Shown: positions 29,101 through 64,000 of the stretch, one piece after another | Layout of the letters: every line of letters begins with the position of its first letter | Position numbering within the stretch: the first letter of the stretch is position 1 | Virus record (IMG/VR): IMGVR_UViG_3300030107_006047 | Span: 1-64,000 of that record | Direction: 5' to 3' (one strand) | Length of the DNA stretch: 64,000 bases | From: a virus | Notes under the pieces: model-generated | Databases searched by the model: none | Told to the model about the DNA's origin: nothing | What the model saw: the letters and a program-made list of their open reading frames with translations, nothing else | Position numbers and translations under genes: made by a program

Positions 29101-32100
29101 GACACATTCGACGATGTTGGCCCAACAGATTCTCCTCGAGATCTTTTGCCTGCTCCGAAATCTTTTGAAGATCAGTGGGAGTTTATTCAGGTTCTCGAAT
29201 CTCCCAATGGCGGGTATTGGAAAAGGAAGGGAGAGGGTCCTGCGGTCACCAGCCCTCTTTCTCACCCAGAGCTTGCTGGAGGAAAGGGCGCAGACGCGAT
29301 TACTGTGTTCAGGCATTCTCCAGTTCTTGGGGAAACACCTGCGGCTGCCGGTGACTGGGTGGGCGCAAGGATTAAGCCCACGGGAGTATGGGGAGATCAC
29401 TTTAATCCGATAATGCACGCATCCAGGGGTGCGGACCACCCGGCGCTAACCCTTTACAGCGCTATTGATGGAAATACTTACAAGTTCACCATTGCCGCTA
29501 CCAGCAGGGCGTCGCAGTCAAAGATAGGTGACGTTCCTGAGATGTATAGGACTTTGGTGGCAGAGTCTTTGGCTGAGTTCAAGCAGCATTTGGATTCTAA
29601 TCCAGATGCTGAGTACGTCTTTATTCCACAAAAATCCAAGATGAAGATTGCTTATAAGCCATCGGGACAAATAGCTTTTCGCGACCAGGGTTACCCTGAA
29701 AAGACCTTCTCGTTCTACAAGAAGTGGGCAAGAGATCTTGGTCTTGAAGAAACGACAGCCTGGTATTACCCGGAAAAAGGGAGCTACCGCGAAACTAAAG
29801 CGTTTCGTATTCCGTCCAAAAAGCTTGAGAAAATGCAGGAGCAGGCTGCGCTTGCAGCAAAAGATCCAAGCGTAATTCCTCCGTCTGCTGTTCTTGAGCA
29901 TCCAAAGCATTGGTCGAAAAAGAAAGTAGACTTCATTGAGTCTTGGAGGAAGTGGGCAAAAGAGAGCGGAATGGACCCGCTGATTTCGAAAGTTTCCGAA
30001 ACATTCATGCAGATCCTTCCGAATCGGGCGTTTGAATATCACAACCTTTATTTTCACCCGACCAGTAGACACCTTTATGGCTCACAAGCATCTGCCAGAG
30101 GAAGCGGTATAGACAGCGGCATCCCTTACGCAGTGAAGCTGTACTTTACGTCGAAAGCAATCAAATACGACCCAGAAACTTCTCCTTTGGCAAAGATGAC
30201 GAAAGAGGAGATCGCTGAGGATGCACGAAAGTCCTTCCAGGCTTGGAAAGACGACAAGCTAGCAAAACGGAGGAAAGAAAAAGGTCTTGATCCGCCAGGA
30301 TCAGATGACTATCTTGCTGCCAATTCAGATCTTAGGGCGATTGAGATTAATGAAATCATAGAAGTGCTCGGCCCTCATGTTGCCGAAATAAGCCGAAGAA
30401 TGTCGGAAAGGAGAGAATCTGGCGCGAGAGTGCCGGTTGAAGATGATCCTCATTGGCAGATTGACACTGACCACGCAAAATACTGGGGCGTATCAAATGC
30501 TGGAGAATGGGTTGAGAACCAAGTTCTCCAAACCGGCGTCGCCGCCAAAACGACTGATGTTGGCTATAATCCTACACTTATAAGAAGGGCTGTAAGGCGA
30601 GCAAGCGACGCAATTGCGCAGAGCGAATACAGCCTAATCAAGGTAGCGCATACGTTTGTACACGAGATGACGCATGTCCTTCACTACTCAGTTCTTTCAG
30701 AGAAGGAACTGAAGGCCCTCAGGAGAGCATACGTTCGTGAACGAGATGCGGGGTTTCCAAATTGGAGAAGAGCTAGAGATTTTAAGAAGGATTTGAAAAC
30801 AGAAAGCGCTTTCGGTGAATGGCTTGCAGACACTGTTTCAGATTATTGGATTACCGGAAACGCAAGCAGGCACGGTTTGTTTACCAAGGAAGAGGCGGGG
30901 CTTCTTCAATCAGCCATCAGAAGAATGGCTCACTGGTTCAAACAACTATTTGGTTGGAGGAGCCAGACCATTCGGGGAACGGCACCTCTCGATACGTTCC
31001 CAGAGGAGATCATCGATCTTCTTGAAAGGCTTACAAAACAGGCGCTTGAAGGCGAAGAAGCTAAAGCGGGATGGGTTGATGAAACGGTAGAAATTAGACC
31101 AAAATCAGAGCTTCGTAGCTGGTACTCAGAAGACCTTGGGCCTGTTGCGTCTACGCGCCGTACAGGCCCTCCGCGCCGTGGAAACGAGATTCCTCGTAAG
31201 GATTGGGACGAAAACTGGCAAGACAAGCCCGCGATAGAATCTGCGCGGTGGTTGAGAGATCAAGTAGATAACGATCTTCAAAAAGCAGTATTAGACAAAG
31301 TCATAGAAAGCCTGGACGAAACAGGCACAGATCCAAGAAGCACGTCCGTAAAGACGTACTTGTCAGACCTCCCTGGATTATCTGGTCGGTATCATCCCGA
31401 CAGGGGTTGGGTTTTGCTCGACCCGGCTCGGTCATCTTGGCAAGAAGGTGGCATGGTTCAGGTGGCAATCCATGAATTAGTGCATGCGGCTACTGTGGGT
31501 AAGATTGAAATCTACCCGGACTCGATCCAGGTGAAGAGGCTGGACCGTCTCTTTGATGAGGCTAGGTCACAGGTTTTTACTCCTGCTCACAAGACACGTT
31601 CTTATGGGTGGAATGACCGGCTGGAGTTTATTGCGGAGGGTCTTTCAAATCCTAAGTTTCAGGATGAGCTTCGCTCTATCAAAATCAGCGATGAGCTTGC
31701 TTCAGAGCTTGGGATTGCAGATCCAAATCTCTGGGAGGGCTTGGTCGCTATTATTAGACAACTCTTGGGTCTAGGCGAAAACGACCAGTCAGCACTCTCA
31801 GGTCTTCTGAAGGTCACAGACGACATCGCCCGTATGGACATTGAGCCGAAGCGCTCTATGAGCTGGATGGATAGGTCTAAATACGAGCCTCCGCCACCCG
31901 CAAGGATGGAAGAGATTCTTGACACGATCTTAGACGAAAAGTCAGCACAACAGGCGGCCACTGCTAACGCCCCTCTTTGGGTAAGATCTATTCAAGAAAT
32001 GCCAGAAGAGAGGGCGCTTGACGCAGCCGAAAGCATTGCTGCGAACTACGCTCCTGTTGGCTCAAAAGAGTACGAAGGCATTGTTTCATACATTGTGACA

Positions 32101-35100
32101 GGGGGACGAGAGGGAAGGCTGAACAGAAAAATCTTGGCTGACTTTGAACCAGGAACCCCAGCATCGACTCCATCAACAGGGCCGACTCCAAGGTGGCGAG
32201 TGTTTTACGACACAAAGGTTGAGGGTAAAGACGGAACTACCAAGCTTGTTTCTTCTGCAGAGGTTTGGAATAGCGCTGACGCAGACGCGCTGTACCACAT
32301 AATGAAGAGCGGCAACATCTTTATGATCTTCAACAACGGCGGAAAGCTTCTGCGCCGATTCCTTGGCTCAAGAGACTACCGTCACTTGGTTAGAGAGCTT
32401 GATACCAAGGGGGGCCGAGACAGGCTGTCTCCAGATGGAGAGCGTGCAGCCAAGAAAGCATTCAAGGCATACATTGAAACAGGCAAGGCAAGCGGCCCAC
32501 TACTGCCGCTGTTTGATCAGTTGTACCTGAATCTCCAATCGTACTGGCTACGCCTGTCTAAAGACAGGTCCATTATCGCATCCCCTGAAATTCGAGGATG
32601 GTTTGATGAATGGCTTGCCCCAGACTTAAACCTAAGACCCCTTGCTGCTGAGATTACGGAAAGAGTTTTGACCAGATTCAAGCAGGTCAGAATTGCAGAG
32701 CCCGAAGATCTTCTGAAAAGATTGGAAGAGGGCATGGTCGGCCTTATGGGCCGAAAAGAAGAGTTTTGGCGCGTTCCTTTAGATACGCCAACTGTCAGAA
32801 ACGCTCTTGGCATTACTGACTACACCAAAGAAATGGATGTCGTTGACGCCTTTTCTAGGGCTGTTGGGTATGTGGCTGGTGAGCACGCCAGGATTATGTC
32901 TGGCGCTGAGAAGATGTTTGACCTGACCACCCGAAGCCACGTTCCTGCAAGCCGGGTAAAGGCTATCCACAGGGATGCGAATCGTCGCGTTTACCAAGTA
33001 CTTAATGGAAAGGTCGAGCACGGAACAGGAACAGGAAAGCTTGAAGGAAAGGTGGTCGCAGTTCTTTCTCCGGCACAAGCTGCATCCTTTAGGGTCTTTC
33101 TAAGATCTCTTAGTGCTGAGGCTCTTGGTAATATCCTTCCAATCCACCTTCTTGATGAATCTACTGACCTTACCCAAATATCGCTTGCTGACATGAACAC
33201 CATCATGGAAGTCGTCATTGATATTGAGGCGGGTGTGGCGGCTTCAAGAACGCACTACTCTGAGCGCATTTCGCCAACCCTCGCTGTTGCGATGTGGAAC
33301 GGCCTTAAGCAAATGTCGATCAACTCTGAGAAATACTCCGACCTAATGAAGTCAGTATCAGGTGGAATCCGGTCTCGATTCTCAGAGGCTTCCGATCTTG
33401 AAGATCTTGGTCCGTTCCAGCGACAAGTAGTAGAGATGACAACCAGAGAGTTGGGCGGCATTCCAAACGAAATGCTCAGGTGGCTTATTGAGTTCAGGAA
33501 AGGGAACAAAGACGCTACTCTTCATGAAATGTATCTGGCAATGAAGAACCAGCTAGAAGCTCCAGTCAAAGTAGAGCTTGTTGAAAAGATTATGGGAAGG
33601 CCAGCCACGCCAACAGACAAGGGCTCTAAAGGCTGGCTTGTAGAACTGGAAAGGTTCCACGGCTCACTGGAGGCCGACCCAGAAGGGCCCCCTCTTGCGG
33701 CTAGCAGGCGAAGGGATGCTCTTTTAGGCAGGGTAGACGATGAGGTTCAGTATGAAGATCCTACTGGCGGCGACATAGCAGGGTCATTCTTGGACCATGT
33801 ATTGGAGAACCTTTCAGATCTTCAAAGCATGATGGAGCAAGAAAAGCTGTCTCACCCGGTATACGGGCGGCTTGCAGAGGAGGATCATCATTCCCTGCAG
33901 ATCCTTCAAACCTACAAAGACAAGCTTAAGAAGTTTAGAGAGGGTCAGGAGAAAGGCGCTCCGAGAGAATCCTTGGATAAGATCTTGTCCGAAGAAGACT
34001 TTTCTGCAGTCGAGGACGCCCTTTATTACGTTCTCGACAGAATCAGAAGGCAGAAAGACAGGATCAGCCAGAGGGCTGTAAAGATTGGTCGCGCTCTTTC
34101 TGGTGACACTGACTTTGCCGATTCTATCTTCATGAAGAGTTCTGATGTTCAGGGCGAGTACTACGTCATGTTTTATGAAGGCAGATGGCTTGAGATGTTC
34201 GAAGCCTTTGGCACAAGAACAGGCATGGCCACTGGCTTCGAAAAGACCAGAGGTAAGGCCCCAGAAATAGACCCCGGCACCGCGCTTGTTCATATGATTG
34301 CAACGCTTAGGGCTGATGAGATTCTCGAGGGCCTTGCCGGAGTGATGGCCAAGTATGGTATCGCGAAAGATGTTCGAGAGCTTACTTCTAACTACTCTGC
34401 TGCAAGAGCCATTGAAGGGCAGTACAGCGGAATAAACAGGGATCTGTTTCACGGTCGGATTCAGTATTACATCGACGGAATACTGTCTTTCCAAATGAGC
34501 GCCAAGAGATACCCCTATGCTCCAATGTACACTGCAAAGGCGGGGGATACCCTTGAGAGTATTGCTAAATCTCATGGTGTGACAGCTAAGCAGCTCGCCA
34601 TGTGGAACGGCCTTGCTGTTACGGATCCCTTGGTGGCCGGGCAAGCAATAAGAACAGCCGACCATAAGATGCTTTTAGAGCAGCCTCGCGCTCCTTTTAC
34701 CGAAAAGCTTGCCCCTGTTCTTCCCACAAGAGAAACAAGAAGAGCGAAAGAACGTGGAGCGCCGGAAGACTTTTACGGCAATGTCCACGATCTTGAGGCT
34801 TATACACAAGCGGTAGACATTATCCATAACTGGGGCTTTAAAACAGCTAAGGAAGGGTTTGAGCTAAGAACGTTGCCGGATGGCAGTAGGGTCTTTGCCC
34901 CGAATTCGGTTTGGAAGCATCTTGATAATGCGCTCGATAGGGCCACGGGCGCTGGCACTGCGCGTGGGGTTGTTGCTCACAGGGTTGATCCTGCTCCGCT
35001 TGGTGTGACCGACTACAAATGGTCACCTGATGCCGAACGAAAGATGGCTCTTGGTAGGGCTGTTGATTCGCTTCAAAATATGTTCCCCTCCACCTTTGCC

Positions 35101-36582
35101 AGAATCAAGATGGGAGTGACGACAGGAATCGTTCTTCCGAACCCCGCTTATTTCACTGGTGTTTTCTTGGGAGCAGGGTTTCAGGCAATGCAAGGCGTTG
35201 GTCCTGTTGGGTTCTTTAAGATGATGAGAAACCCAAAACAGACTGGTGCGGTGATTGCAAGGCTCTGGAAAGAGGGATCTTTTGCGCCAGATGCTCCCCC
35301 AATTGTTTCAAAGAACGGTCAGATTTACACCGTTGAAATGCTTGCGCAGCTTGCAGAAGCTCACGGGTTGAAATCCAGCTTCATTCATGCTGAGACGATG
35401 AAGGCGATTGCGTCGGATATTCGTGAGTTCCATCCTGGCTTTTGGAACAAGATGAGAGTTGGTCGGTGGGCAAAGAACTGGCAGAAGACACTTATCGAAA
35501 GCGCCACCGCACTGGATAACTATTGGCGTGTTTCAGTCTTTATTCATGAAATAAGAATGGGTAAGTCCCCTGCTGCTGCTGCCGAAAAAGCCCGGCTTGT
35601 TGGTTACGACTACGCGGCTCTCACCAAGTGGGAGAAGAAGTTCGCCAGAAATACGATCATGTTCTACTCGTACATGCGCAAGAACATGGATCTGTTCTGG
35701 GACACGCTTCTAACAAACCCGGAACGGCTGATCGGTCAAATGCGGCTCTTGAGAGGGATCCATACGGTCTGGTTGGATGACGACCCTCAGATTGTATTGA
35801 AGGACTATCTTCACGGAAGGCTGCCTACTTATTTCAAAGAGACCACAATAAATACGCATAAGTACAGCCAATGGATGTTCATCTCACCTCCCCTCCCCAT
35901 GATGGACGCGCTCAACATTTATATCGACATATACGATCTGATTGCGTTTAGAGACGAAGAGGCGATGCGAGGGCTTGCCACAAGATCCGCTCCTTGGGTG
36001 CAAGCACCATTTGTTATGGCAACAGGAAAAGACATTTTCTGGGACAAAGAGCTAAACGAATACAACAAGATTCCGTCATGGTTGATGGAGATGGATCTTG
36101 CTTTGACGGGCGGCGGCCTCATGTATGGAGTATTCGGCGCACAAAGAAGGCCCCATAGCGATCTTAGCAGGGCAGACATTTCGGGAGAATCTGAACGCGG
36201 CTGGTATCACGCAAGGAACGGTAGGGCCTGGTGGATCTGGCGAAACCTTCTGCAGTTTCCTGGCGCTGGCCGATCTATGGACACCATTTCATATATGGAC
36301 CGAGCGAACCTTGGGGCTGTCGAGGCTTCCGTCCGTACCGCCCGTTGGGCCAGGAGGACTGGGGCGGAAAGCGGTTGGTGGTCTGGGGTGCCAGAAATGG
36401 GCGAAGGAGACACCATGGGGCCAAGAACCGGCCTTGCGTGGAAAGACGAGTTGGCTGGTCTGTTTGGGTTCAAGCCTATTCATGTTCCTCAAAGATCACA
36501 CCAAACGGCTGTTGATAGTATTAGAATGCACAAAAGGAAAAAGCAGGTTTTGGCCCGAGAACGTCTATCAGAAGAAGACTAA
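26107..36582 (+). CDS. Giant 3491-residue polyvalent-type virion protein with two metallopeptidase motifs and LysM
   Basis: GTG start, GGAGAG upstream. Visible regions: acidic N-terminus; Gly-zipper stretch about 310-345 (GMTIGAVIGGFVGYGAG); first zinc-peptidase motif HEMTH at 1519-1523, with a downstream EWLADTVSDY that may give the third ligand; second motif HELVH at 1789-1793, with EFIAEGLSNP around 1840-1849; a LysM peptidoglycan-binding domain about 2808-2850 (AGDTLESIAKSHGV); and a C-terminal part (about 3000-3300) with PNPAYFTGVFLG and a segment ending FYSYMRKN, like the LPD-type regions of phage polyvalent proteins. Such proteins are thought to be carried in the virion and to enter with DNA. 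The LysM suggests contact with the cell wall during entry (inference). A Pro/Gly-rich linker with a duplicated PPVGGP sits near residue 980. Confidence 0.85.
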   Translation: MSNGNDDDILLEGMTGFAEEPVLGGGVYRGELDLTGELDTSPAEMFEDVDVVGSIRDFEETYSKAATPVTYIEQEQINDQLREAIEMQLRSTRPGHEDDWYKERVEKRIHDLSFVHANYAPDPPELPSVSFLKNLYQQYPEQLRSTYRPDSSVGRVVSAISTDKTDEQIQELIDKTTVSEWPSEFTWGGGFVNAMQRGLSRRVIEVEAGADKPGSEMRWEHGRKVSREYEAIMDDQGWGAGVARMWANGPSMDENDAYRAGLFLDEDEATARELVVSTGLGMTFGAMVRSKLGYLLPRAGVWGRRTFGLRGAVKGATAGSSGGPIGMTIGAVIGGFVGYGAGKVWGKVDAEEFFKPVPAFPQDEDDDGWFFALPKGLVDLSTRTLVLTGLADSAVVPIMASSNEEADRMRDIIAMSRPSEAWESLVHEYRTARDSGRTSEELREELRPLMGGMVRNVAWADLPDAARHADNLDLETAIEYATANKDVGDINAPKFTFQYFVGLANEGNTGKKGLQRVLHSLPIGQILNHVPQIIVGDESRPGSIPSVDTFIDGVMVAARDTEEAYALTGTDTTRDLATGFAELMLERREVGGTTRYVENTPGKLFRVLSSVPELYMEMRLPFDIPLTPASRDARYNLGIRDPDVGYWANFFSNVETGEMGLARHVTDEMISRGVDRQSWQYRGIATGGVMADWLVYWERPIISGIGMPTRAGLRGYGAWKQYKDNPLRLQAVTAALSPRLYAFRNKVDVQNTQAWANVSRFLGEDTGLEGLQTLKGGKASDGSDVVLGVRESGIVDRMIEAMEQGKSFEDAEASLPTYRDHDWYTVQSHLLSEGVKNGVIKGDDVWAVVPKPMRSQVIQVMAAAGIEPSSAIRALNQYILKARKINLHAMEKLLTEGTPEMIAFRGSDQYKNLRNVLLEAVGSAGGATDHVNISMPKLELQAWIAALDPQRPNIKSMEDYFDALRIELEGAGGPPPTKGPKDPPVGGPEDPPVGGPGKDTFDDVGPTDSPRDLLPAPKSFEDQWEFIQVLESPNGGYWKRKGEGPAVTSPLSHPELAGGKGADAITVFRHSPVLGETPAAAGDWVGARIKPTGVWGDHFNPIMHASRGADHPALTLYSAIDGNTYKFTIAATSRASQSKIGDVPEMYRTLVAESLAEFKQHLDSNPDAEYVFIPQKSKMKIAYKPSGQIAFRDQGYPEKTFSFYKKWARDLGLEETTAWYYPEKGSYRETKAFRIPSKKLEKMQEQAALAAKDPSVIPPSAVLEHPKHWSKKKVDFIESWRKWAKESGMDPLISKVSETFMQILPNRAFEYHNLYFHPTSRHLYGSQASARGSGIDSGIPYAVKLYFTSKAIKYDPETSPLAKMTKEEIAEDARKSFQAWKDDKLAKRRKEKGLDPPGSDDYLAANSDLRAIEINEIIEVLGPHVAEISRRMSERRESGARVPVEDDPHWQIDTDHAKYWGVSNAGEWVENQVLQTGVAAKTTDVGYNPTLIRRAVRRASDAIAQSEYSLIKVAHTFVHEMTHVLHYSVLSEKELKALRRAYVRERDAGFPNWRRARDFKKDLKTESAFGEWLADTVSDYWITGNASRHGLFTKEEAGLLQSAIRRMAHWFKQLFGWRSQTIRGTAPLDTFPEEIIDLLERLTKQALEGEEAKAGWVDETVEIRPKSELRSWYSEDLGPVASTRRTGPPRRGNEIPRKDWDENWQDKPAIESARWLRDQVDNDLQKAVLDKVIESLDETGTDPRSTSVKTYLSDLPGLSGRYHPDRGWVLLDPARSSWQEGGMVQVAIHELVHAATVGKIEIYPDSIQVKRLDRLFDEARSQVFTPAHKTRSYGWNDRLEFIAEGLSNPKFQDELRSIKISDELASELGIADPNLWEGLVAIIRQLLGLGENDQSALSGLLKVTDDIARMDIEPKRSMSWMDRSKYEPPPPARMEEILDTILDEKSAQQAATANAPLWVRSIQEMPEERALDAAESIAANYAPVGSKEYEGIVSYIVTGGREGRLNRKILADFEPGTPASTPSTGPTPRWRVFYDTKVEGKDGTTKLVSSAEVWNSADADALYHIMKSGNIFMIFNNGGKLLRRFLGSRDYRHLVRELDTKGGRDRLSPDGERAAKKAFKAYIETGKASGPLLPLFDQLYLNLQSYWLRLSKDRSIIASPEIRGWFDEWLAPDLNLRPLAAEITERVLTRFKQVRIAEPEDLLKRLEEGMVGLMGRKEEFWRVPLDTPTVRNALGITDYTKEMDVVDAFSRAVGYVAGEHARIMSGAEKMFDLTTRSHVPASRVKAIHRDANRRVYQVLNGKVEHGTGTGKLEGKVVAVLSPAQAASFRVFLRSLSAEALGNILPIHLLDESTDLTQISLADMNTIMEVVIDIEAGVAASRTHYSERISPTLAVAMWNGLKQMSINSEKYSDLMKSVSGGIRSRFSEASDLEDLGPFQRQVVEMTTRELGGIPNEMLRWLIEFRKGNKDATLHEMYLAMKNQLEAPVKVELVEKIMGRPATPTDKGSKGWLVELERFHGSLEADPEGPPLAASRRRDALLGRVDDEVQYEDPTGGDIAGSFLDHVLENLSDLQSMMEQEKLSHPVYGRLAEEDHHSLQILQTYKDKLKKFREGQEKGAPRESLDKILSEEDFSAVEDALYYVLDRIRRQKDRISQRAVKIGRALSGDTDFADSIFMKSSDVQGEYYVMFYEGRWLEMFEAFGTRTGMATGFEKTRGKAPEIDPGTALVHMIATLRADEILEGLAGVMAKYGIAKDVRELTSNYSAARAIEGQYSGINRDLFHGRIQYYIDGILSFQMSAKRYPYAPMYTAKAGDTLESIAKSHGVTAKQLAMWNGLAVTDPLVAGQAIRTADHKMLLEQPRAPFTEKLAPVLPTRETRRAKERGAPEDFYGNVHDLEAYTQAVDIIHNWGFKTAKEGFELRTLPDGSRVFAPNSVWKHLDNALDRATGAGTARGVVAHRVDPAPLGVTDYKWSPDAERKMALGRAVDSLQNMFPSTFARIKMGVTTGIVLPNPAYFTGVFLGAGFQAMQGVGPVGFFKMMRNPKQTGAVIARLWKEGSFAPDAPPIVSKNGQIYTVEMLAQLAEAHGLKSSFIHAETMKAIASDIREFHPGFWNKMRVGRWAKNWQKTLIESATALDNYWRVSVFIHEIRMGKSPAAAAEKARLVGYDYAALTKWEKKFARNTIMFYSYMRKNMDLFWDTLLTNPERLIGQMRLLRGIHTVWLDDDPQIVLKDYLHGRLPTYFKETTINTHKYSQWMFISPPLPMMDALNIYIDIYDLIAFRDEEAMRGLATRSAPWVQAPFVMATGKDIFWDKELNEYNKIPSWLMEMDLALTGGGLMYGVFGAQRRPHSDLSRADISGESERGWYHARNGRAWWIWRNLLQFPGAGRSMDTISYMDRANLGAVEASVRTARWARRTGAESGWWSGVPEMGEGDTMGPRTGLAWKDELAGLFGFKPIHVPQRSHQTAVDSIRMHKRKKQVLARERLSEED

Positions 36583-47072: not shown

Positions 47073-47101
47073 ATCCTATTCACTGATAGTATGTATGTCA
47101 A
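47073..47101 (-). promoter_or_regulatory. Candidate promoter for exonuclease-RecT genes
   Basis: On the - strand TTGACA (47096-47101) and TAGGAT (47073-47078) are 17 bases apart. This would place the RNA start within a base or two of the ATG at 47065, giving a nearly leaderless message. The match of the -10 is only partial. Confidence 0.35.
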
Positions 47102-47143
47102 TAGTTGACAGTCGATGAGCACCAGTTAATCGACAAACTATTG
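47099..47143. promoter_or_regulatory. Dyad operator-like region between divergent genes
   Basis: Left arm CAATAGTT plus GTCGAT and right arm ATCGAC plus AACTATTG form an interrupted inverted repeat. It overlaps the candidate promoter and separates the exonuclease gene from the divergent HTH gene at 47180. A likely binding site for that regulator (inference). Confidence 0.5.
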
Positions 47144-47179
47144 AAACTGTGATGTTTTTATTTTACAAAGGTGCTTCAT

Positions 47180-47419
47180 ATGGTGTGCGAAGATTACAGA
47201 AAGGGGCTTCCTAATGCGAGCACGAGGGCTCTGTTTGTTGATTATCTAAATCAAAAACTTGAAGAGCTTGACCTCAGCATCACGGTTTCTCACCTGAGAG
47301 AGCTTGAAAAAGGAAGAAGAATACCAAGCCTTGAGCTTGCGTTAGGCATCGAGAAGGCAACAGGGGGTGTTGTCTCCGCAAGAGAGTGGCCCGGCCTTAG
47401 CTCAAAGATACGGCGCTAA
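47180..47419 (+). CDS. Small helix-turn-helix regulator
   Basis: 79 residues; ATG at 47180 with AAAGG eight bases upstream, rather than GTG at 47171. The middle (VSHLRELEKGRRIPSLELAL) has the Cro/CI-type helix-turn-helix pattern E-x-G-R-R-x-P-S. The only + strand gene in the early block with good support. It faces the exonuclease/recT operon across a dyad, as a repressor or Cro-like gene would. Its stop abuts the end of the next - strand gene. Confidence 0.7.
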   Translation: MVCEDYRKGLPNASTRALFVDYLNQKLEELDLSITVSHLRELEKGRRIPSLELALGIEKATGGVVSAREWPGLSSKIRR

Positions 47420-47638
47420 TCACCCCTCAGGTAAGTCTTGCTTCTTCTTGTAGGCTTCAAGCATTCTGTTTAGAGCCCACTTTGAACCAAGCTTATAGAA
47501 GACCCTGAGTTGCTCTCGAACATTCTCGTAGGTCTCTCCTCGAAGAACGGTGTCTCCTTCTTTGTCTTTTAGAACCCACCCTTTGTTTGTTTGCTCTAAT
47601 GTCCAGTCGCTTGGAATCCAGTTCCTCTGATCTGCCAT
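47420..47638 (-). CDS. Small unknown protein
   Basis: 72 residues; ATG at 47638 with GAGG upstream, rather than a longer start at 47689 that would lie inside the preceding gene. Soluble and basic with WILPSDW-type aromatic motifs (NWIPSDWTLEQTNKGWVL) and a helical C-terminus. One base separates it from the upstream stop, so it is translationally linked. Confidence 0.65.
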   Translation of the reverse strand: MADQRNWIPSDWTLEQTNKGWVLKDKEGDTVLRGETYENVREQLRVFYKLGSKWALNRMLEAYKKKQDLPEG

Positions 47639-47639
47639 C

Positions 47640-48254
47640 TTAGTCCTCTTCAAAAGGGTTTGGGGTGAATGACAGCTCTCCTTGTTCAACCCTGGCAGCC
47701 GCAGTGTTTTTCCATTCTAAAACCATTTCTCTCCAGGCTTTAGACAGGTCTCGTTCCTCTTGGTGAGAGAAGCCGCGACCTGCGGCGATGCTTAGGGTGT
47801 TGTCGTTAATGAAGTCTTTTATTTTTTTATAAAGCTTGTTCTTCATTTCCCATAGAACGTAGGGAGAAACGGCAATCCATTCCTGAAGAACAAGAAGCTC
47901 CGACTCTTTAGGTAGGCTTAGCTTCTGTTCCTCAAGGTCCCCCAAGTAGGCAGCGACATCCAGCATGATGTGACACCTGTCTGTGTATTCGGTCTTGATG
48001 TTAATGAGTCTCCCCTCACATCCAAGAATGACCTCTGCACCTATTCCAACCAGCGTGTTTGCTTCTTGAGTTGATTCAAAAGATTCAAGCTCAATGGCCG
48101 CCTCCAGAAGTGCAGTTCGGTCACTTAGCGATAGCTCGGAAATGCTCTTCCATTCTGCAGGTCGAACCCTGGGTGGCGTGTGCTTGTTCAAAAACGCCAG
48201 CTGTTCTTGTTGGTTTAAAAATAAATCTATCAGTATCTCGTTGTTTGTTTCCAT
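47640..48254 (-). CDS. Unknown helical protein upstream of the helicase genes
   Basis: 204 residues, AGGAG-type site before the ATG (GGAGAAAGCA). Glu/Leu-rich, mostly helical with no catalytic motif. It lies nine bases downstream of the VapE helicase gene in the transcript. A replication accessory role is possible but not shown. Confidence 0.7.
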   Translation of the reverse strand: METNNEILIDLFLNQQEQLAFLNKHTPPRVRPAEWKSISELSLSDRTALLEAAIELESFESTQEANTLVGIGAEVILGCEGRLINIKTEYTDRCHIMLDVAAYLGDLEEQKLSLPKESELLVLQEWIAVSPYVLWEMKNKLYKKIKDFINDNTLSIAAGRGFSHQEERDLSKAWREMVLEWKNTAAARVEQGELSFTPNPFEED

Positions 48255-48263
48255 TGCTTTCTC

Positions 48264-49583
48264 CTAAAACTCATCATCGTCTGAGCGTGACTTTCCTGGG
48301 AACGAAAGAACTTCAGTTGGGCCCCATACATAGGCTCTCTTACCCATCATTGTTGTTCTTCTTCGCTTCCATCCAAGGTTTCTGAGCACATCCGACACTC
48401 GCATTTGCGCAAACTTTGTCATCTGATTTGAATCAAGACCAAGACCATCGGCGAGGATTTCAGAAACCATCAGGTCTCGTCGGCCCAGAAGCCACTTCTC
48501 TAAGATTGGTTGCCACGGGTCAACTTCTCTGAAGTCTTCTGAAACACTCTTAAGATCGATCTCGTTCTTGTTGTCCAGCCACCAAGGCTCGTTGTTGTTG
48601 AATGCGTTGACTGCCTCAGCCCACAACTGATCCCTGTTCGATGAGACCCAATCAAGGTCAACCTTTCCAATCTTGACTGGCCAGAATCGACGGCTACCAG
48701 TGTTATCAGAAATGAATGACTCTTCATTTGTGGTTCCACAGAACACACAGTGTCGCTTGATGGTCACCGAGTGGCGACCGTAGGCTGGTCGATAGTTATC
48801 AAACCCGGCTGACAGGAACGCTTTGGTTCTACTGTTGGCCCGCTTTCTAATAGAGTCCAGCTCAGCGATCTCGTAGATCCAGGCCCTGCGAATCTGGCTG
48901 TAGGCATTGGGTGATCCAATGTCCATTGGCGTATCGCAGAAGTATTCGTCACCGGCAAGAACCCTAAACGTCGTGCTCTTTCTTGCACCCTGTGGTCCGA
49001 ACAGAATCAGGCAACAGTCGGCCTTGCACCCAGGCTTTATCGCCCTGGCCACTGCGGAAATCATCCATCTTCTGCCCATGTCCCTATTCAACGAAACATC
49101 GTCAGCCCCGACACCTTTCACCAGCCAATAGTCGAGCCTCTTCACCCCGTCCCACTGGAGCCCGTTGAGCCAATCAACAAGAGGGTTGACCCCGTTCTCC
49201 TCGCCGACAAGCCTGGCCACCTCTGCGACGGCTGTAGTGGAGACTCTCATCCCATACACTGAGTCAATCCACATCTGTATCTTTGTGTCGTCAGTGTCCT
49301 TGTATTCTTTGTCGCCACGCATCATGACGCCCTTGAACTGATCTTCCCAGATCTTTCCCTTCACTCTGGTGTCGTGAGTAAGTATGAGGTGAATGTTGCG
49401 ACGGGTTGGTCGCACTACTAAATCACCATTCTTAGTTAGATATCCATCCAACATTGACGACACGTTGGGCTGTGGTTTAGTTTTCCGGTTTGCCTTCTTG
49501 TCAGCAGAACCAGATTTTATTGCGTCATCAACAAGCGACCGCAGCGTTTTTCCATTGGCAATTGCAGCATCTAAATCCGGCAC
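48264..49583 (-). CDS. VapE-type replicative helicase (virulence-associated E)
   Basis: 439 residues. Walker A GPQGARKST at 196-204, acidic Walker B YEIAELD near 239, and arginine-rich sensor region KRHCVFCGTTNEESF. The N-terminal domain (about 90-160) and C-terminal winged-helix-like end (LGWKRRR near residue 412) fit the VirE/VapE family of superfamily 3-like phage helicases. It abuts the primase gene, stop to start one base apart, forming the phage primase-helicase pair. Probably unwinds origin DNA. Confidence 0.88.
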   Translation of the reverse strand: MPDLDAAIANGKTLRSLVDDAIKSGSADKKANRKTKPQPNVSSMLDGYLTKNGDLVVRPTRRNIHLILTHDTRVKGKIWEDQFKGVMMRGDKEYKDTDDTKIQMWIDSVYGMRVSTTAVAEVARLVGEENGVNPLVDWLNGLQWDGVKRLDYWLVKGVGADDVSLNRDMGRRWMISAVARAIKPGCKADCCLILFGPQGARKSTTFRVLAGDEYFCDTPMDIGSPNAYSQIRRAWIYEIAELDSIRKRANSRTKAFLSAGFDNYRPAYGRHSVTIKRHCVFCGTTNEESFISDNTGSRRFWPVKIGKVDLDWVSSNRDQLWAEAVNAFNNNEPWWLDNKNEIDLKSVSEDFREVDPWQPILEKWLLGRRDLMVSEILADGLGLDSNQMTKFAQMRVSDVLRNLGWKRRRTTMMGKRAYVWGPTEVLSFPGKSRSDDDEF

Positions 49584-50688: not shown

Positions 50689-50940
50689 TTATTTTTTTGA
50701 AATGGTGAACTCAAGTTGTTCACCGGGTCTTACTGAAAACTCGAGGTGTATGCCGGTCTCTTCCTTTGCTCTGGATGCAAGCTTTGCAAGCGTATCCAGT
50801 GAGACTGGTGGCCTGTTCCTCGTGACCGTTCCCCACAGCGTGGTGTGGCTAATGCATAGGACATCTGCCGCGCCCCTGTACCCTCCTCCGATTTCTTCGT
50901 ACAGCGCTCTGACTGCTGGTGTCGTATCTATTCTCTCCAT
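50689..50940 (-). CDS. Helix-turn-helix protein, Cro-like
   Basis: 83 residues, no strong upstream site but three bases after the preceding gene. GAADVLCISHTTLWGTVTRN near residues 22-42 fits a helix-turn-helix of the lambda-repressor type. It ends in a Glu/Lys/Ser strand. It may regulate the replication genes downstream. Confidence 0.6.
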   Translation of the reverse strand: MERIDTTPAVRALYEEIGGGYRGAADVLCISHTTLWGTVTRNRPPVSLDTLAKLASRAKEETGIHLEFSVRPGEQLEFTISKK

Positions 50941-57559: not shown

Positions 57560-57867
57560 CAACAAAATGCACACACCCTCATCTCTTGACATCTCGTTGA
57601 CATTTACTTGCTCAGTCTCTCATCGAGATGGCGAAAGCGATCACAGCTACAATAAGAAAACCCCAAGCAATTACATCTACATAGATGTGCCCTTGGCTTG
57701 GTTGGTCAATGGTTTGGTACTGTATCTTCATGTCATGCTCTATCGGGAAAGGTGCCCCCCTCCCCTTCAACGATCGAGAAAAAGGGGAGGAGGACTGGAG
57801 GTAACCACTCCTCCCTCATTGTGTATACGGGCAAAGGGTAAATTAATTTCCAGAAGGATAAAAGATT

Positions 57868-58171: not shown

Positions 58172-58861
58172 TTATTCTTCAGTGGTTTCAACAACTTGCA
58201 AGTGGCTCGCATCATCCAGGTGTTCTGGCACAGGCTCTTCATCATCGAAGAAGATGTCCTCCTCTTCTGCCCATGGGTCTTCACCGATAGCTTGTTCGAC
58301 ATCATCAGGGCTCGACGTGTCAAGCACAGTGATCTCCGCATCCTTTGCGAACTCCCATCCGGCTGGCGGATACCACCTGTAGCGTCGCACCCTTTGGATC
58401 ATAGAGCGTCGTCTCTTCCAGCCGAGAGACTCCATCACGGTTGCGAGCTTCATCTCTCCGGCTCTGCCTGACCAGTCAAGGCCCAACTCTTCTGACTCGT
58501 TGACCTCGGAGAGGATGTCTGCGCTTGAGATACCGATGTGTCTCTTGCGGAGCTTGGCTCGAAGCCTGTCTGCGAACTCTTCATCCACCTGTCGCACGTC
58601 TTGTACCATGTCCATCTGAGGCACAGCAGCCAACACACCGGAGTACAGCTCAAACTCGGACGGCGTGATGCCGTAGCGCCCAGTCAGGTAGACCAGCAGG
58701 GATGCCATCTCAGCTTTCCCGGCTTTGGTTGTGCCTGTGTAGATAGTCCCAGAAGGACTCGCGGTGTACTTCCCTGCCAGCTTCTCGTCATGGCGTAGCG
58801 CCAAGAAGACAGCGTGTGATCCGTTCCCTGCCTCAATAGCTTTTCTCGTTTGTTCTTTCAT
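58172..58861 (-). CDS. Unknown protein with VapE-like C-terminal winged-helix region
   Basis: 229 residues, AAGGAGG before the ATG. Residues about 115-175 (DILSEV...LDWSGRAG then MESLGWKRRR and YRWYPP) resemble the C-terminal end of the 48264-49583 helicase (LRNLGWKRRR, AYVWGP). The remaining tail (about 180-229) is strongly acidic (DEEEDIFFDDEEP). Possibly a replication adaptor or origin-binding protein that competes for the same partner; inference only. Confidence 0.75.
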   Translation of the reverse strand: MKEQTRKAIEAGNGSHAVFLALRHDEKLAGKYTASPSGTIYTGTTKAGKAEMASLLVYLTGRYGITPSEFELYSGVLAAVPQMDMVQDVRQVDEEFADRLRAKLRKRHIGISSADILSEVNESEELGLDWSGRAGEMKLATVMESLGWKRRRSMIQRVRRYRWYPPAGWEFAKDAEITVLDTSSPDDVEQAIGEDPWAEEEDIFFDDEEPVPEHLDDASHLQVVETTEE

Positions 58862-59699: not shown

Positions 59700-60008
59700 T
59701 TGAGTTATTTGGATTATTTGGATATTTTGGAGATAATAGGGTCGGTAAAGCCTCCCGCTTCGCAGGAAAGGATACCGTGGGTTGATGAGGTAAAAATGAA
59801 GCGTGGGTATTGGTGGCGGGCGGCCATCGAAAGGGTGTACCCCATATTGATAGACCAGCTGTACCTACAACGCCTCGGAAACACTAAGAAAAACAATAAG
59901 TTACGCATCCAGGCTCGTAAAAACCCAACCGGCAACCCGAAGTCAGACACCAAGGGCCCAAAGCTACCGAACGTTAGGTTACTCCGGCTCCGTGCGAGAG
60001 ACGAATAG
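59700..60008 (+). CDS. Doubtful + strand ORF, homing-endonuclease-like fragment
   Basis: 102 residues from TTG at 59700, without a good ribosome site. The middle (RGYWWRAAIERVYPILIDQLY, shortened) vaguely resembles LAGLIDADG endonuclease C-terminal halves. It is divergent from and only five bases away from the - strand gene, which argues against both starts being real. If a fragment, the rest is absent. Confidence 0.25.
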   Translation: MSYLDYLDILEIIGSVKPPASQERIPWVDEVKMKRGYWWRAAIERVYPILIDQLYLQRLGNTKKNNKLRIQARKNPTGNPKSDTKGPKLPNVRLLRLRARDE

Positions 60009-60024: not shown

Positions 60025-60180
60025 GGCGCGACTCGGTACGCTCCCCGACAAGTGCTTGTGATGTGTTGCCCATGCTCACCAGTATAACCTGGCGCGATCT
60101 GGTACGGCCCCGAACATTCAAGGGGGCGCGACTCGGTACGGCCCAAGACGTAAAGGCGCGATCTGGTTCGACGATAGACA
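60025..60180. repeat. Repeat cluster A: four units of a GC-rich motif
   Basis: Units start at 60025, 60091, 60125 and 60155. Consensus GGCGCGATCTGGTACG, then NCCCNNGACA. Two units carry GATC and two have GACTC instead. Entirely intergenic. Related to clusters B and C. Confidence 0.9.
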
Positions 60181-60289
60181 TGGTGAGCTGTTCCCGCGTT
60201 TGAAGTTGGAAGGGGGGCATGACCGGAGACCAATCACAGCCATGCCCCGGAGTCCGGCGGGCATGATTCCACCGGACCCCTCAACCAAC

Positions 60290-60634
60290 TCAGTTGTTCT
60301 CGTCGTATTGCTTGGCAAAGCCACGGGCGATGCACAACAGTGCTTCCATGGGTGTCACTCTTTCGCTGAAGGGCTTCGTCTTGTCCCAATGCCAGTCGAT
60401 GTACGGGTTCTCTTGGTAGGCATCCCACTTCGCTTGGCTCAAGATGATGCACGACCACCCATCATACCCTGGCGCAGTGATTTGAAACTTCTCCTTGTGC
60501 GCTTTGGGAAAGGTGAACACCGCACCTGAGTCCTTGTAGGTGTAGCTGTTGCCGATGCGTGTCATCTGAAGCTTGGACTTCTTGAACCCGATCTTCTTGA
60601 ATGCTGCTGCCATCTGTCGATTAGTCATTTCCAT
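60290..60634 (-). CDS. Unknown protein
   Basis: 114 residues, GGAG six bases before ATG 60634. Basic N-terminus (MTNRQMAAAFKKIGFKKSK) and Trp-rich middle (GYDGWSCIILSQAKWDAY). Its leader contains a GNRA hairpin (60648-60665). No family. Confidence 0.65.
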   Translation of the reverse strand: MEMTNRQMAAAFKKIGFKKSKLQMTRIGNSYTYKDSGAVFTFPKAHKEKFQITAPGYDGWSCIILSQAKWDAYQENPYIDWHWDKTKPFSERVTPMEALLCIARGFAKQYDENN

Positions 60635-60647
60635 TTGTCTCTCCAGT

Positions 60648-60665
60648 GCCCCCCTTTCGGGGGGC
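60648..60665 (-). promoter_or_regulatory. Leader hairpin with GAAA tetraloop
   Basis: On the - strand GCCCCCC-GAAA-GGGGGGC, a perfect 7-bp stem closed by a GNRA loop, eight bases after an AACAAAC tract and six before GGAG. One of three such hairpins. Confidence 0.75.
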
Positions 60666-60686
60666 GGTTTGTTTGTTGCTCTCAGA

Positions 60687-61118
60687 CTACCCGTGGGAAT
60701 ACGTCTGCGTCTCAGTGTTGAAGCTCAGCTTCCGGTGCCGCTGGGCGTAGTCATCTTCCGCACGAATGATGGCCGGTGTGCCGTGGCGATGGTCGTCTCT
60801 CTTGTTGTGGTAGTTACCGCCACCGCATCCATTGTGATCTGCGTTGTACATCCAGGTGACATACTCATCACCGAACTTGGCCATCACAGTGAACAGGTAG
60901 TGGTCACCAGGGTGGAACGAGTACGCCTTGATAGCGTAAAGCGTTGCTCCGTTGCTCAGCTTCTCGCCGAACTTGGGAAGCTCCCACCGCGTTTGCTTCT
61001 TGGCCAGAATCTCGAGTGCTTTGCTCACTTGGGCTTGGCTAAGAGTCCCGGTCATCGTTGCGTGCAACTGGCCCTCCTGTCTGTTGATGTCGGCGATTGT
61101 CTCGTGTGTTGTCTTCAT
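60687..61118 (-). CDS. Unknown protein
   Basis: 143 residues; ATG at 61118 with AAGGAG five bases upstream. Mixed alpha/beta with GGGNYHNKRDDHRHG, a His/Asp/Asn-rich loop that could bind metal. Not assignable. The longer frame upstream runs through the repeat cluster and is unlikely. Confidence 0.65.
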   Translation of the reverse strand: MKTTHETIADINRQEGQLHATMTGTLSQAQVSKALEILAKKQTRWELPKFGEKLSNGATLYAIKAYSFHPGDHYLFTVMAKFGDEYVTWMYNADHNGCGGGNYHNKRDDHRHGTPAIIRAEDDYAQRHRKLSFNTETQTYSHG

Positions 61119-61145
61119 GGTCTCTCCTTGGTTGAAGATGTGGTG

Positions 61146-61197
61146 GGCCGAATGCCTAACCACATAGGTCAGGTAACTGGTGGTAGGACATCCGGCC
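61146..61197. repeat. Long imperfect inverted repeat in the leader
   Basis: Arms 61146-61163 and 61180-61197 pair over about 17 of 18 positions with one-base slips (GGCCG.ATG.CCTA..CCAC). Together they would make a strong RNA hairpin just upstream of gene 60687-61118. Confidence 0.7.
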
Positions 61198-61222
61198 AGA
61201 AAATAGATGAGAAAGTTTTGGG

Positions 61223-61367
61223 GGCGCGATCTGGTCCGGGCCCAGACGCTACCCGGTTCGTGCCCCGACGCTATCAGGTACGCACCCAGACAGGCGCGAT
61301 CTGGTACGACGGCAGACGCTATCCGGTTCGTGTGCATACAGGCGCGACTCGGCACGACGGCAGACGG
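61223..61367. repeat. Repeat cluster B: six tandem 22-25 bp units
   Basis: Units begin at 61223, 61248, 61270, 61293, 61318 and 61341. Two carry GGCGCGATCTGGT, one GGCGCGACTCGG, three the variant GCTAYC-GGT-CG. This is the most regular tandem array in the window and fills the gap between genes. Confidence 0.92.
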
Positions 61368-61368
61368 A

Positions 61369-61539
61369 TCACCAGATGGCGATCACGTCTATACCACTGT
61401 TGTGGAATCGGGCCGCCCGCTCTGCCCCCTTCCTGGTTTCCCAGCTACCCGGCATCTTATCGACCGGCTCGCCGGACTTGGGGTATCCCCACCCGATACC
61501 CCACGATCCGTCTTTCTTTTGGTATGCAAAGCACTCCAT
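61369..61539 (-). CDS. Small unknown protein (56 residues)
   Basis: ATG at 61539 (MECFAYQKKDGSWGIGWG) with AAGGAG six bases upstream; the longer frame from 61629 is less likely. Trp/Gly-rich beta N-terminus, basic C-terminus. Leader hairpin at 61554-61569. Confidence 0.6.
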   Translation of the reverse strand: MECFAYQKKDGSWGIGWGYPKSGEPVDKMPGSWETRKGAERAARFHNSGIDVIAIW

Positions 61540-61553
61540 GGTGCTCTCCTTTA

Positions 61554-61569
61554 GGGGGCTTGCGCCCCC
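61554..61569 (-). promoter_or_regulatory. Leader hairpin with GCAA tetraloop
   Basis: On the - strand GGGGGC-GCAA-GCCCCC, 6-bp stem with GNRA loop, followed by CTAAAGGAG. Nearly identical to the hairpin at 61891-61906. Confidence 0.8.
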
Positions 61570-61585
61570 GTCTGGTTTGGTTTGG

Positions 61586-61876
61586 TTAGGGTGTGTAGCG
61601 AAACATCCTACGGACATGGGATGTCCCATTGGTGTGGCTCTCTACCCACTGAGCGCGAAAGCCATACTTTTTTTCAAATGCATCTAAGAAAGTCCCCGCA
61701 TCCATGTCCCCTTCCAAGTAGGCAATGGTCTTGTGCTTGTTCGTGTAAGAGTAGGGGGTGATCTTCTCTTGAATGCCAAGGTCCTTCAGTGCATTGAAGG
61801 GTACCGCAAGCCATTCGTGGCCAGGGTCAGCATAGAAGATCAGCGCCATTGTGTGAGGGTCGAAAGGTTTAGCCAT
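61586..61876 (-). CDS. Unknown protein
   Basis: 96 residues, AAAGGA eight bases before ATG 61876. Mixed alpha/beta; FYADPGHEWLAVPFNALKDL and a C-terminal basic strand. No family. Confidence 0.65.
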   Translation of the reverse strand: MAKPFDPHTMALIFYADPGHEWLAVPFNALKDLGIQEKITPYSYTNKHKTIAYLEGDMDAGTFLDAFEKKYGFRAQWVESHTNGTSHVRRMFRYTP

Positions 61877-61890
61877 TGTCTTGTCCTTTA

Positions 61891-61906
61891 GGGGGCTTGC
61901 GCCCCC
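61891..61906 (-). promoter_or_regulatory. Leader hairpin with GCAA tetraloop
   Basis: On the - strand GGGGGC-GCAA-GCCCCC, then CTAAAGGAC. The same leader design as at 61554. Confidence 0.8.
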
Positions 61907-61920
61907 GTTAGGTTTGTTTG

Positions 61921-62694
61921 TTAGATTGCGAGGCCCTGGTGCCAGTCGGTAGGCTCAGCGAGGCCAGCCCGCCATAGTCGGTACCGCTTCTCCAGTGACC
62001 CGTGAACGTTGATCGCTCTTGACGGACGACCCGATCCCTTTCGGGTACCGTCGCACTGTGCGCAGCGCTGACAGTCTAGGATCTTCCCCATTTCTTCCGA
62101 TGCAGGACAGCCCCGTTCGAATGGTAGAAGGGGCTCCTCTGCTAGCTTGACTCGAAAGGTACGCCATCCCAACGCATGCGCCCTGATCGTATCCCATGGG
62201 GTCTCTGTTGAGGCCATCACAAACGGGGCCCACATTGACGCGTCAAGGTCTCGCCACCTGTGATCGTATCCTGTGATCGTCTCAGCACCTTTTGTGTGGT
62301 GCCCCCAGATCCCAACGGGTACCGCTGAGGGATTACCATACGCACCTAGCCTGAGGTCTCTATCGATGGCGATAGGCTGTAACTGGTGATCGTATCCGCC
62401 CCGATGGTATGCCTTCCAGATAGCTAGCGGGGCTTGGTATCCGATGACATAGCATGCGCCACCTAGCGACGGTCTATGAATGCAACCGCCACAGACGGAC
62501 TCATCTGCTCCATTCTTGATCGCTACATGGGGCGCAATGTCTGTGCGCATGATCCAGGTTTGGATCATCCCCTTCCGATTCGAATCGGATAGCTTTTTGT
62601 TTTTCGTTTTGCGCTTGAGCCCGGTCGCGACGCACACAATAGGTGCCCCGTCGATCTGGCTTGCTCCTTCCCATAAAATTCTACCGTCTGCCAT
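61921..62694 (-). CDS. Conserved phage protein of unknown function, Cys-containing
   Basis: 257 residues. ATG at 62694 is preferred: AGGAG is only one base from ATG 62703 but ten from 62694. Contains ADESVCGGCIHRP...ACYVIGY, a motif arrangement (CxxCxHR...CYV) recalled from other phage proteins of unknown function, and CQRCAQC near the C-terminus. It may be a metal- or Fe-S-binding enzyme. A large gene for this end of the window. Confidence 0.75.
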   Translation of the reverse strand: MADGRILWEGASQIDGAPIVCVATGLKRKTKNKKLSDSNRKGMIQTWIMRTDIAPHVAIKNGADESVCGGCIHRPSLGGACYVIGYQAPLAIWKAYHRGGYDHQLQPIAIDRDLRLGAYGNPSAVPVGIWGHHTKGAETITGYDHRWRDLDASMWAPFVMASTETPWDTIRAHALGWRTFRVKLAEEPLLPFERGCPASEEMGKILDCQRCAQCDGTRKGSGRPSRAINVHGSLEKRYRLWRAGLAEPTDWHQGLAI

Positions 62695-62803
62695 TTTTAT
62701 CATGCTCCTAAGGGTCTCTAGTCGTTATGACTATCTTTACCTTATAGAGGTTAGGCAGGCTAGGCAATAGGTAGACTGATCCCTTGACAAGCCCTTGACA
62801 TAT

Positions 62804-62892
62804 GGCGCGATCTGGTACGTGCCCACACAAGAACAGGCGCGATCTGGTTCGCACCCAAACAGACGGGGCGCGATCTGGTTCGCACCCGGACG
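62804..62892. repeat. Repeat cluster C: three units
   Basis: Units at 62804, 62836 and 62867, all with GGCGCGATCTGGT-CG, spacing 31-32 bp. Upstream of the 62694 gene. Confidence 0.92.
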
Positions 62893-63405: not shown

Positions 63406-63978
63406 TTACGCTTGACCTGACATGATGTGGATATCCTGCGGACGATAGACTTGTTTGTTGTAGACGAACCGATCCCATGTACCGGGTGCCATAGTGAACC
63501 GCCGGAAGTGTTTGATCCGGTCGCACTTGAATTCGATCCACTCTCGGATCTTAGTCTCTACTGCTTTAGTGCGTGGCTTGTATTCACCGGGTGTCACGAC
63601 CCACTTGTCAACGTGTAGCCCCGTGATGTACAGCTTGCCGCCTGTCTCTACCAGTCGGCCCTTATCATCCACCGGGACGAAGGGTGACTGTTGAGGTCCG
63701 GCTTGCCGCTTTGCATAGGCAGCCCGCACCCGATCCAATACGGCGGTCGCTTGTTCGATACTGGTACAGTCGGGGCAGTTCGCCAGAATAGTAGCCGGGT
63801 CGATCTGTTTAGCCGCTACGATAGCCCGGCCCAACAGATCCATATAGCTGAAGCCTACCTGGATCTTGCGGTTCGTTACCTCGCCGCTTGATTTAGAGAC
63901 GTGACCATATAGCCACGCGAACTGGCCGCCGCCCGATTGTGACAGCGCTTGAATGAATGAAGGAAAGTTACTTTGCAT
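63406..63978 (-). CDS. Unknown protein at the right edge
   Basis: 190 residues, AGGAG before ATG 63978. Mixed helical with LANCPDCTS and a basic Trp-containing C-terminus. A GTCAAGC hairpin (63398-63416) spans its stop codon. Not recognised. Confidence 0.65.
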   Translation of the reverse strand: MQSNFPSFIQALSQSGGGQFAWLYGHVSKSSGEVTNRKIQVGFSYMDLLGRAIVAAKQIDPATILANCPDCTSIEQATAVLDRVRAAYAKRQAGPQQSPFVPVDDKGRLVETGGKLYITGLHVDKWVVTPGEYKPRTKAVETKIREWIEFKCDRIKHFRRFTMAPGTWDRFVYNKQVYRPQDIHIMSGQA

Positions 63979-64000
63979 GTCGCTTACTCCTAAGCATGTC

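Follow-up and report, generated by a model that had tools for sequence, protein, structure and literature searches.

An asymmetric 25-bp motif repeated sixteen times in intergenic clusters of a phage early region: a candidate cooperative regulatory array

The iterons of P1 oriR/incA and of R6K are direct, asymmetric repeats of about 22 bp; some of them are near promoters, and they can form several clusters. Multi-cluster direct repeats also occur in partition sites and in packaging enhancers. The stoperators of cluster A mycobacteriophages have the 13-bp consensus GGTGGMTGTCAAG. In phage L5 these sites are asymmetric and intergenic, share one orientation and lie in early leftward operons (PMC9283540). 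The origins of PICIs are located immediately 3′ of rep and comprise a pair of iteron sets with an AT-rich stretch between them (PMC6092414). SaPI Rep and Cch2 bind iterons by means of a C-terminal winged-helix domain (PMC7581432).

The stretch analysed here (the window, 64,000 nucleotides) corresponds to positions 1-64000 of the 72,060-bp viral record IMGVR_UViG_3300030107_006047; positions given as "record" are those of the full record. The final ORF continues in frame from the record end into the record start, a 6-bp overlap (GAGAAG) joining the two ends; a complete, circular map is therefore probable. Leftward genes occupy the region from about 64.0 down to 45 kb, and rightward genes the remainder of the circle, from 64.3 kb to 45 kb. 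The early/replication block encodes RecT, RecE, a VapE/PriRep1-like helicase, a Toprim primase, an SSB, a methyltransferase and a second helicase. With the DNA of the repeat region as query, no close phage record was found in INPHARED. Downstream of the terminase and adaptor genes, in the rightward block, window positions 26107-36582 encode a 3,491-aa protein whose sole Pfam match is LysM. The GC skew of record positions 66001-69000, also in the rightward block and containing RusA, is unusually strong compared to the rest of the genome (0.22-0.36).

A weight-matrix scan of the whole 72,060-bp record identified 16 repeat units in four clusters, all on the + strand. Since the matrix was trained on the same 16 units that it then scored, the informative part of this result is the gap between the units (19.5-26.3 bits) and the next-best site (14.7 bits, in coding sequence), the remainder scoring 11 bits or less. 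The first-pass annotation had counted thirteen copies, in clusters of four, six and three. All thirteen were recovered at their places, and the total is 16 because a fourth cluster sits just beyond the window end. The clusters are as follows.

60025..60179, + strand: cluster 1, four units (60025, 60091, 60125, 60155; spacings 66, 34 and 30 bp), between the small + ORF 59796-60008 and the leftward gene 60290-60634.
61223..61365, + strand: cluster 2, six units (61223, 61245, 61267, 61293, 61315, 61341; spacings 22, 22, 26, 22 and 26 bp), ending 105 bp upstream of the start codon of the leftward gene 60687-61118.
62804..62891, + strand: cluster 3, three units (62804, 62836, 62867; spacings 32 and 31 bp), ending 101 bp upstream of the start codon of the leftward gene 61921-62703.
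Record 64108-64205, + strand: cluster 4, three units (64108, 64145, 64181; spacings 37 and 36 bp), just beyond the end of the window, 130 bp upstream of a leftward start codon; it occupies the space that separates the leftward genes (start 63978) from the rightward ones (start 64312), where divergent early promoters are predicted.

Genes separate neighbouring clusters, which are 1.1-1.5 kb apart, and all four fall within 4 kb. Every unit is intergenic by the annotation used here, as had been proposed at first reading. The accompanying proposal of a right-end early block holds for the early block, whereas the "right end" is a cut in a circular-looking map. Likewise, clusters 2-4 do lie upstream of leftward genes, but for cluster 1 this is not clear: the next leftward start is 331 bp away and a small + ORF intervenes. 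A direct search for GGCGCGATCTGGTNCG with at most three mismatches gave 13 matches in the window, compared to a shuffle mean of 1.4 and a maximum of 4. These matches comprise 11 units and two stray sites; the units at 61245 and 61341 are more divergent and were missed at this cut-off. In a genome-wide scan for short-repeat clusters the units were the only non-coding family found, all other repeat arrays being inside ORFs.

The motif is a 25-bp asymmetric sequence, GRCGCKAYYYGGTWCGNNCCCAGAC, in which columns 1, 3, 4, 5, 7, 11, 12, 15, 16 and 25 are invariant in all 16 units. Conservation is concentrated in three blocks (columns 1-7, 11-16 and 21-25) separated by variable bases, with block centres about 10 bp, or about one helical turn, apart. 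This spacing suggests a protein reading one face of the DNA, and the free bases between blocks would be as expected for groove contacts. The second part of the unit had been described as looser; on alignment its 3′ block proves conserved, with C at column 25 in 16/16 units, A at column 24 in 14/16 and C at column 21 in 13/16. The initial unit size of 22-26 bp matches the spacing within cluster 2; elsewhere the spacing is 30-37 and 66 bp, and the phasing between units is irregular outside cluster 2. Some cluster 2 units also have longer tails in common (CGACGGCAGACG), hence local duplication took place. A palindromic dimer operator was rejected, as the dyad about columns 10/11 is weak (49% paired versus about 25%) and the strongest columns are not symmetric.

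Decayed coding sequence, a possibility raised at first reading, is an unlikely origin of the units, since their spacings are mostly not multiples of three and they lie outside the chosen genes. Cluster 2 falls within the ORF 60687-61355 through an in-frame extension due to chance, but the ATG at 61118 has an AAGGAG ribosome site ahead of it. An RNA element was rejected: for most clusters folding was no better than for shuffled sequence on either strand (z from +1.0 to −0.8), and cluster 3 gave about −1.7. No Rfam family matched the units at E values up to 1. A tRNA T-arm origin (GGTTCG...CC) was set aside because column 14 is A, T or C and columns 17-18 are free. T7-like phage promoters were discounted by eye, the units being tandem, GC-rich and opposed to the gene direction. 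Finally, a Dam/CcrM-site array was discarded, as the counts of GATC and GANTC are near expectation and the units differ at that place.

The gaps from cluster 3 and from cluster 4 to their respective genes are filled by two copies of a duplicated module (alignment z 6.2).

62704..62803, − strand: module A, a leftward promoter predicted from sequence, with the elements CTTAGGAG, AAGATAGTCA, TGCCTAAC, CTATTGCC and TGTCAAN5TGTCAA.
Record 63979-64107 (window part 63979..64000), − strand: module B, a predicted leftward promoter with the same elements.

The two copies differ in the distance from CTATTGCC to the first unit (41 versus 61 bp), by 20 bp or close to two helical turns, and in that from CTATTGCC to the TGTCAA pair (21 versus 11 bp). 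Differences of about whole helical turns are suggestive, in two cases only. The TGTCAAN5TGTCAA direct pair, with an 11-bp period, occurs in three perfect copies upstream of leftward genes (57586-57602, 62784-62800 and record 64058-64074), compared to an expectation of 0.12 at up to one mismatch in the stretch of the record containing them. By its sequence it resembles an activator site or a −35-region site of its own. The pair at 57586 has no units beside it, so the TGTCAA element does not require them. On the rightward side of cluster 4 there is a promoter-like site whose −10 is flanked by TGCCTAACC and GGTCAGGTAA. Half-sites of the form TGCCTAAC(C) are found in the predicted early promoters (61153-61176, 62749-62766, record 64034 and record 64259-64289), and at 61153 and in the rightward promoter they are paired with GGTCAGGTA in an inverted arrangement. 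The count of the single motif TGCCTAAC over the genome is not above chance. Judged by their sequence, the TGCCTAAC(C) half-sites are likely to be operators of a second regulator.

The units form a real and strongly conserved orphan motif, most likely a protein-binding site of a known general kind. With roughly even confidence, we favour a cooperative regulatory binding array for the early genes, because for three of the four clusters the distance to an early transcription unit is short and similar, and two clusters adjoin the duplicated promoter module. We infer that one sequence-specific DNA-binding protein, probably phage-encoded, would bind all 16 asymmetric 25-bp sites, in arrays of three to six just upstream of early transcription units and around the main divergence point. 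It would occupy adjacent sites next to one another along roughly one helix face, and could possibly bridge the four clusters across the 1.1-1.5 kb between them. The bound arrays would then set the output of the early promoters, up or down, from upstream, since the units do not overlap the promoter cores, which carry the different motif TGCCTAAC. Counting against this reading, the units of cluster 4 point one way though the predicted promoters flanking them diverge. Moreover, cluster 1 has no clear promoter beside it, promoter-like matches in the region do not exceed shuffled sequence (3 found, 3.8 expected), and the TGTCAA pair at 57586 lacks units.

Proteins that might read the sites are encoded in the same genome.

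48264..49583, − strand: VapE/PriRep1-like helicase that has a winged helix at its C-terminus (residues about 356-423), a candidate both as initiator and as binder.
58172..58861, − strand: stand-alone 229-aa protein resembling the winged-helix part at the C-terminus of the helicase, also a candidate binder.
47171..47419, + strand: HTH_3/Cro-like 82-aa protein (HTH_3 E 1.7e-4), conserved in kin, candidate regulator.

A further small protein (50689-50940), HTH-like by eye, is also conserved in kin. The helicase matches Pfam VapE (E 3e-74) and SaPI PriRep1 (PDB 7pds, E 6e-47). The C-terminal winged helix is modelled confidently and the remainder with low confidence; its structural Z of 6-7 to many winged helices indicates the fold only. 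The stand-alone protein aligns with the C-terminal region of the helicase over 82 aa (32% identity, E 2e-7) and is encoded 1.2 kb from cluster 1. It has no relative in the phage records, and its single-sequence AF2 model is poor (pLDDT 46).

These proteins bring in the main rival explanation, possible but on the whole doubtful, in which the units are replication iterons. The arrays would serve as the origin and for copy control, and the helicase would bind them through its C-terminal winged helix, perhaps together with the paralogue of that domain at 58172-58861. The parallel with SaPI/PICI Rep and SCCmec Cch2 lies in two respects: short direct repeats, and a homologous VapE/PriRep1-like helicase with a predicted C-terminal DNA-binding domain of the winged-helix type, the kind of domain by which SaPI Rep and Cch2 bind their iterons. 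The first-pass annotation had likened the layout to iterons or multi-site operators, and the features that support this are the asymmetric direct repeats (17-22+ bp class, 16 copies, 22/26-bp spacing in cluster 2), the approximately two helical turns per unit, the intergenic location and the position at early-unit starts. They are the only iteron-like family in the genome, with none downstream of the helicase gene, and the encoding of the winged-helix paralogue near cluster 1 fits as well. Two features described for PICI/SaPI origins are, however, absent. No iteron-like repeats are present immediately 3′ of the helicase gene (47100-47700); the arrays are at 60-64 kb, at least 10 kb from it, in four clusters beside early promoters. 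Nor do two iteron sets flank an AT-rich region, as the clusters are separated by genes and their gaps are GC-rich (AT 0.40-0.47 versus a genome mean of 0.49). An origin does not need four irregularly spaced clusters with intervening genes. The minimum of the circular cumulative GC skew, at 64,483, adjoins cluster 4, which would suit an origin, but the genes change strand at the same point and the maximum does not lie opposite it, so that transcription explains the skew equally well. The phage units resemble the P1 oriR/incA and R6K iterons in being asymmetric direct repeats of about 22 bp and differ in their irregular spacing outside cluster 2; no RepA/pi-type initiator was found among the proteins scanned. 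The arrays may nevertheless work in an iteron-like manner without being an origin of the PICI family.

A combination of the two readings is unlikely: a single winged-helix family, represented by the helicase end and the stand-alone early protein, would read the same 25-bp units at the early promoters and at the divergence point, coupling early transcription with the start of replication. The stand-alone protein would then compete with the helicase or recruit it.

We consider very unlikely a stoperator-like function, in which an asymmetric repressor bound to intergenic DNA would stop elongating RNA polymerase within the early region, in the manner of cluster A mycobacteriophages. The phage units share with those sites their asymmetry, their intergenic location in early leftward operons and their single orientation, but differ from them in sequence and length (25 bp versus 13 bp) and are confined to 4 kb rather than scattered over the genome. 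Moreover, their orientation does not change across the divergence at 64.1 kb, and so they are not oriented with transcription. The L5 consensus GGTGGMTGTCAAG, quoted from general knowledge and subcluster-specific, is not enriched in the early region (7 weak matches compared to 9.2 expected), and PHROGs scans of early genes, which covered part of the proteins, gave no such repressor.

There is little to recommend an architectural, partition or packaging site, by which the arrays would hold the genome so that it can be segregated, compacted or recognised by terminase: multi-cluster direct repeats are known from such sites, but no Par-like match was found among the part of the proteins scanned, and 12-16 kb of the circular map separate the arrays from the terminase genes. 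Equally improbable are short repeats, selfish or without function, that slippage and recombination would have spread, to which the common tails in cluster 2 would point but not core columns invariant in 16/16 units with free bases between, all intergenic and in one orientation, or elements acting as RNA, for which neither a fold signal nor an Rfam match was seen.

Two other repeated features lie in the same region. Three AT-rich 9-mers in tandem (TTTGGATTA, TTTGGATAT and TTTGGAGAT) occupy 59706-59732, about 290 bp to the left of cluster 1; they may be an unwinding element or else the promoter for the small + ORF 59796-60008. Between small leftward genes, 61536-61582 and 61873-61919 are similar (85%) 47-bp spacers with the hairpin GGGGGCTTGCGCCCCC.

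The layout of the units is familiar in kind; the motif itself was found nowhere else in the collections searched. The first-pass annotation knew of no described element with this sequence, and this was upheld in IMG/VR, GTDB, phage records, plasmid records and Rfam. Similar DNA gave no match among phage or plasmid records. A single-unit scan of IMG/VR returned 118 stretches, with one match each among those listed, which is chance level. Of the 12 stretches with a double unit in IMG/VR, 11 carry the 12-bp tandem GCGCTACCTGGT, which is unrelated, and the other has two 15.8-bit copies in a low-scoring repeat; 11 double-unit matches in GTDB are apparently unrelated local tandems or chance in GC-rich genomes. 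The early proteins encoded at 61921-62703, 58172-58861, 63406-63978 and 66.5 kb led to no relatives in viral contigs. Relatives of the helicase (75-76% aa) are on four short contigs that end before the early region and have no unit (best 12.2 bits).

An orphan motif in such high copy offers a direct handle on the early regulator or the origin-binding protein of this phage. If the helicase or its winged-helix paralogue binds, the units would show a full-size phage using a satellite-type self-loading helicase, and the place where replication starts. If a regulator binds, they would define an early-gene control array separate from ordinary operators.

The 11 unrelated viral contigs with the 12-bp tandem have TTGTCCACATTGTCCACA-like repeats flanking the GCGCTACCTGGT array, which by its sequence suggests a control region or an origin in another group of phages.
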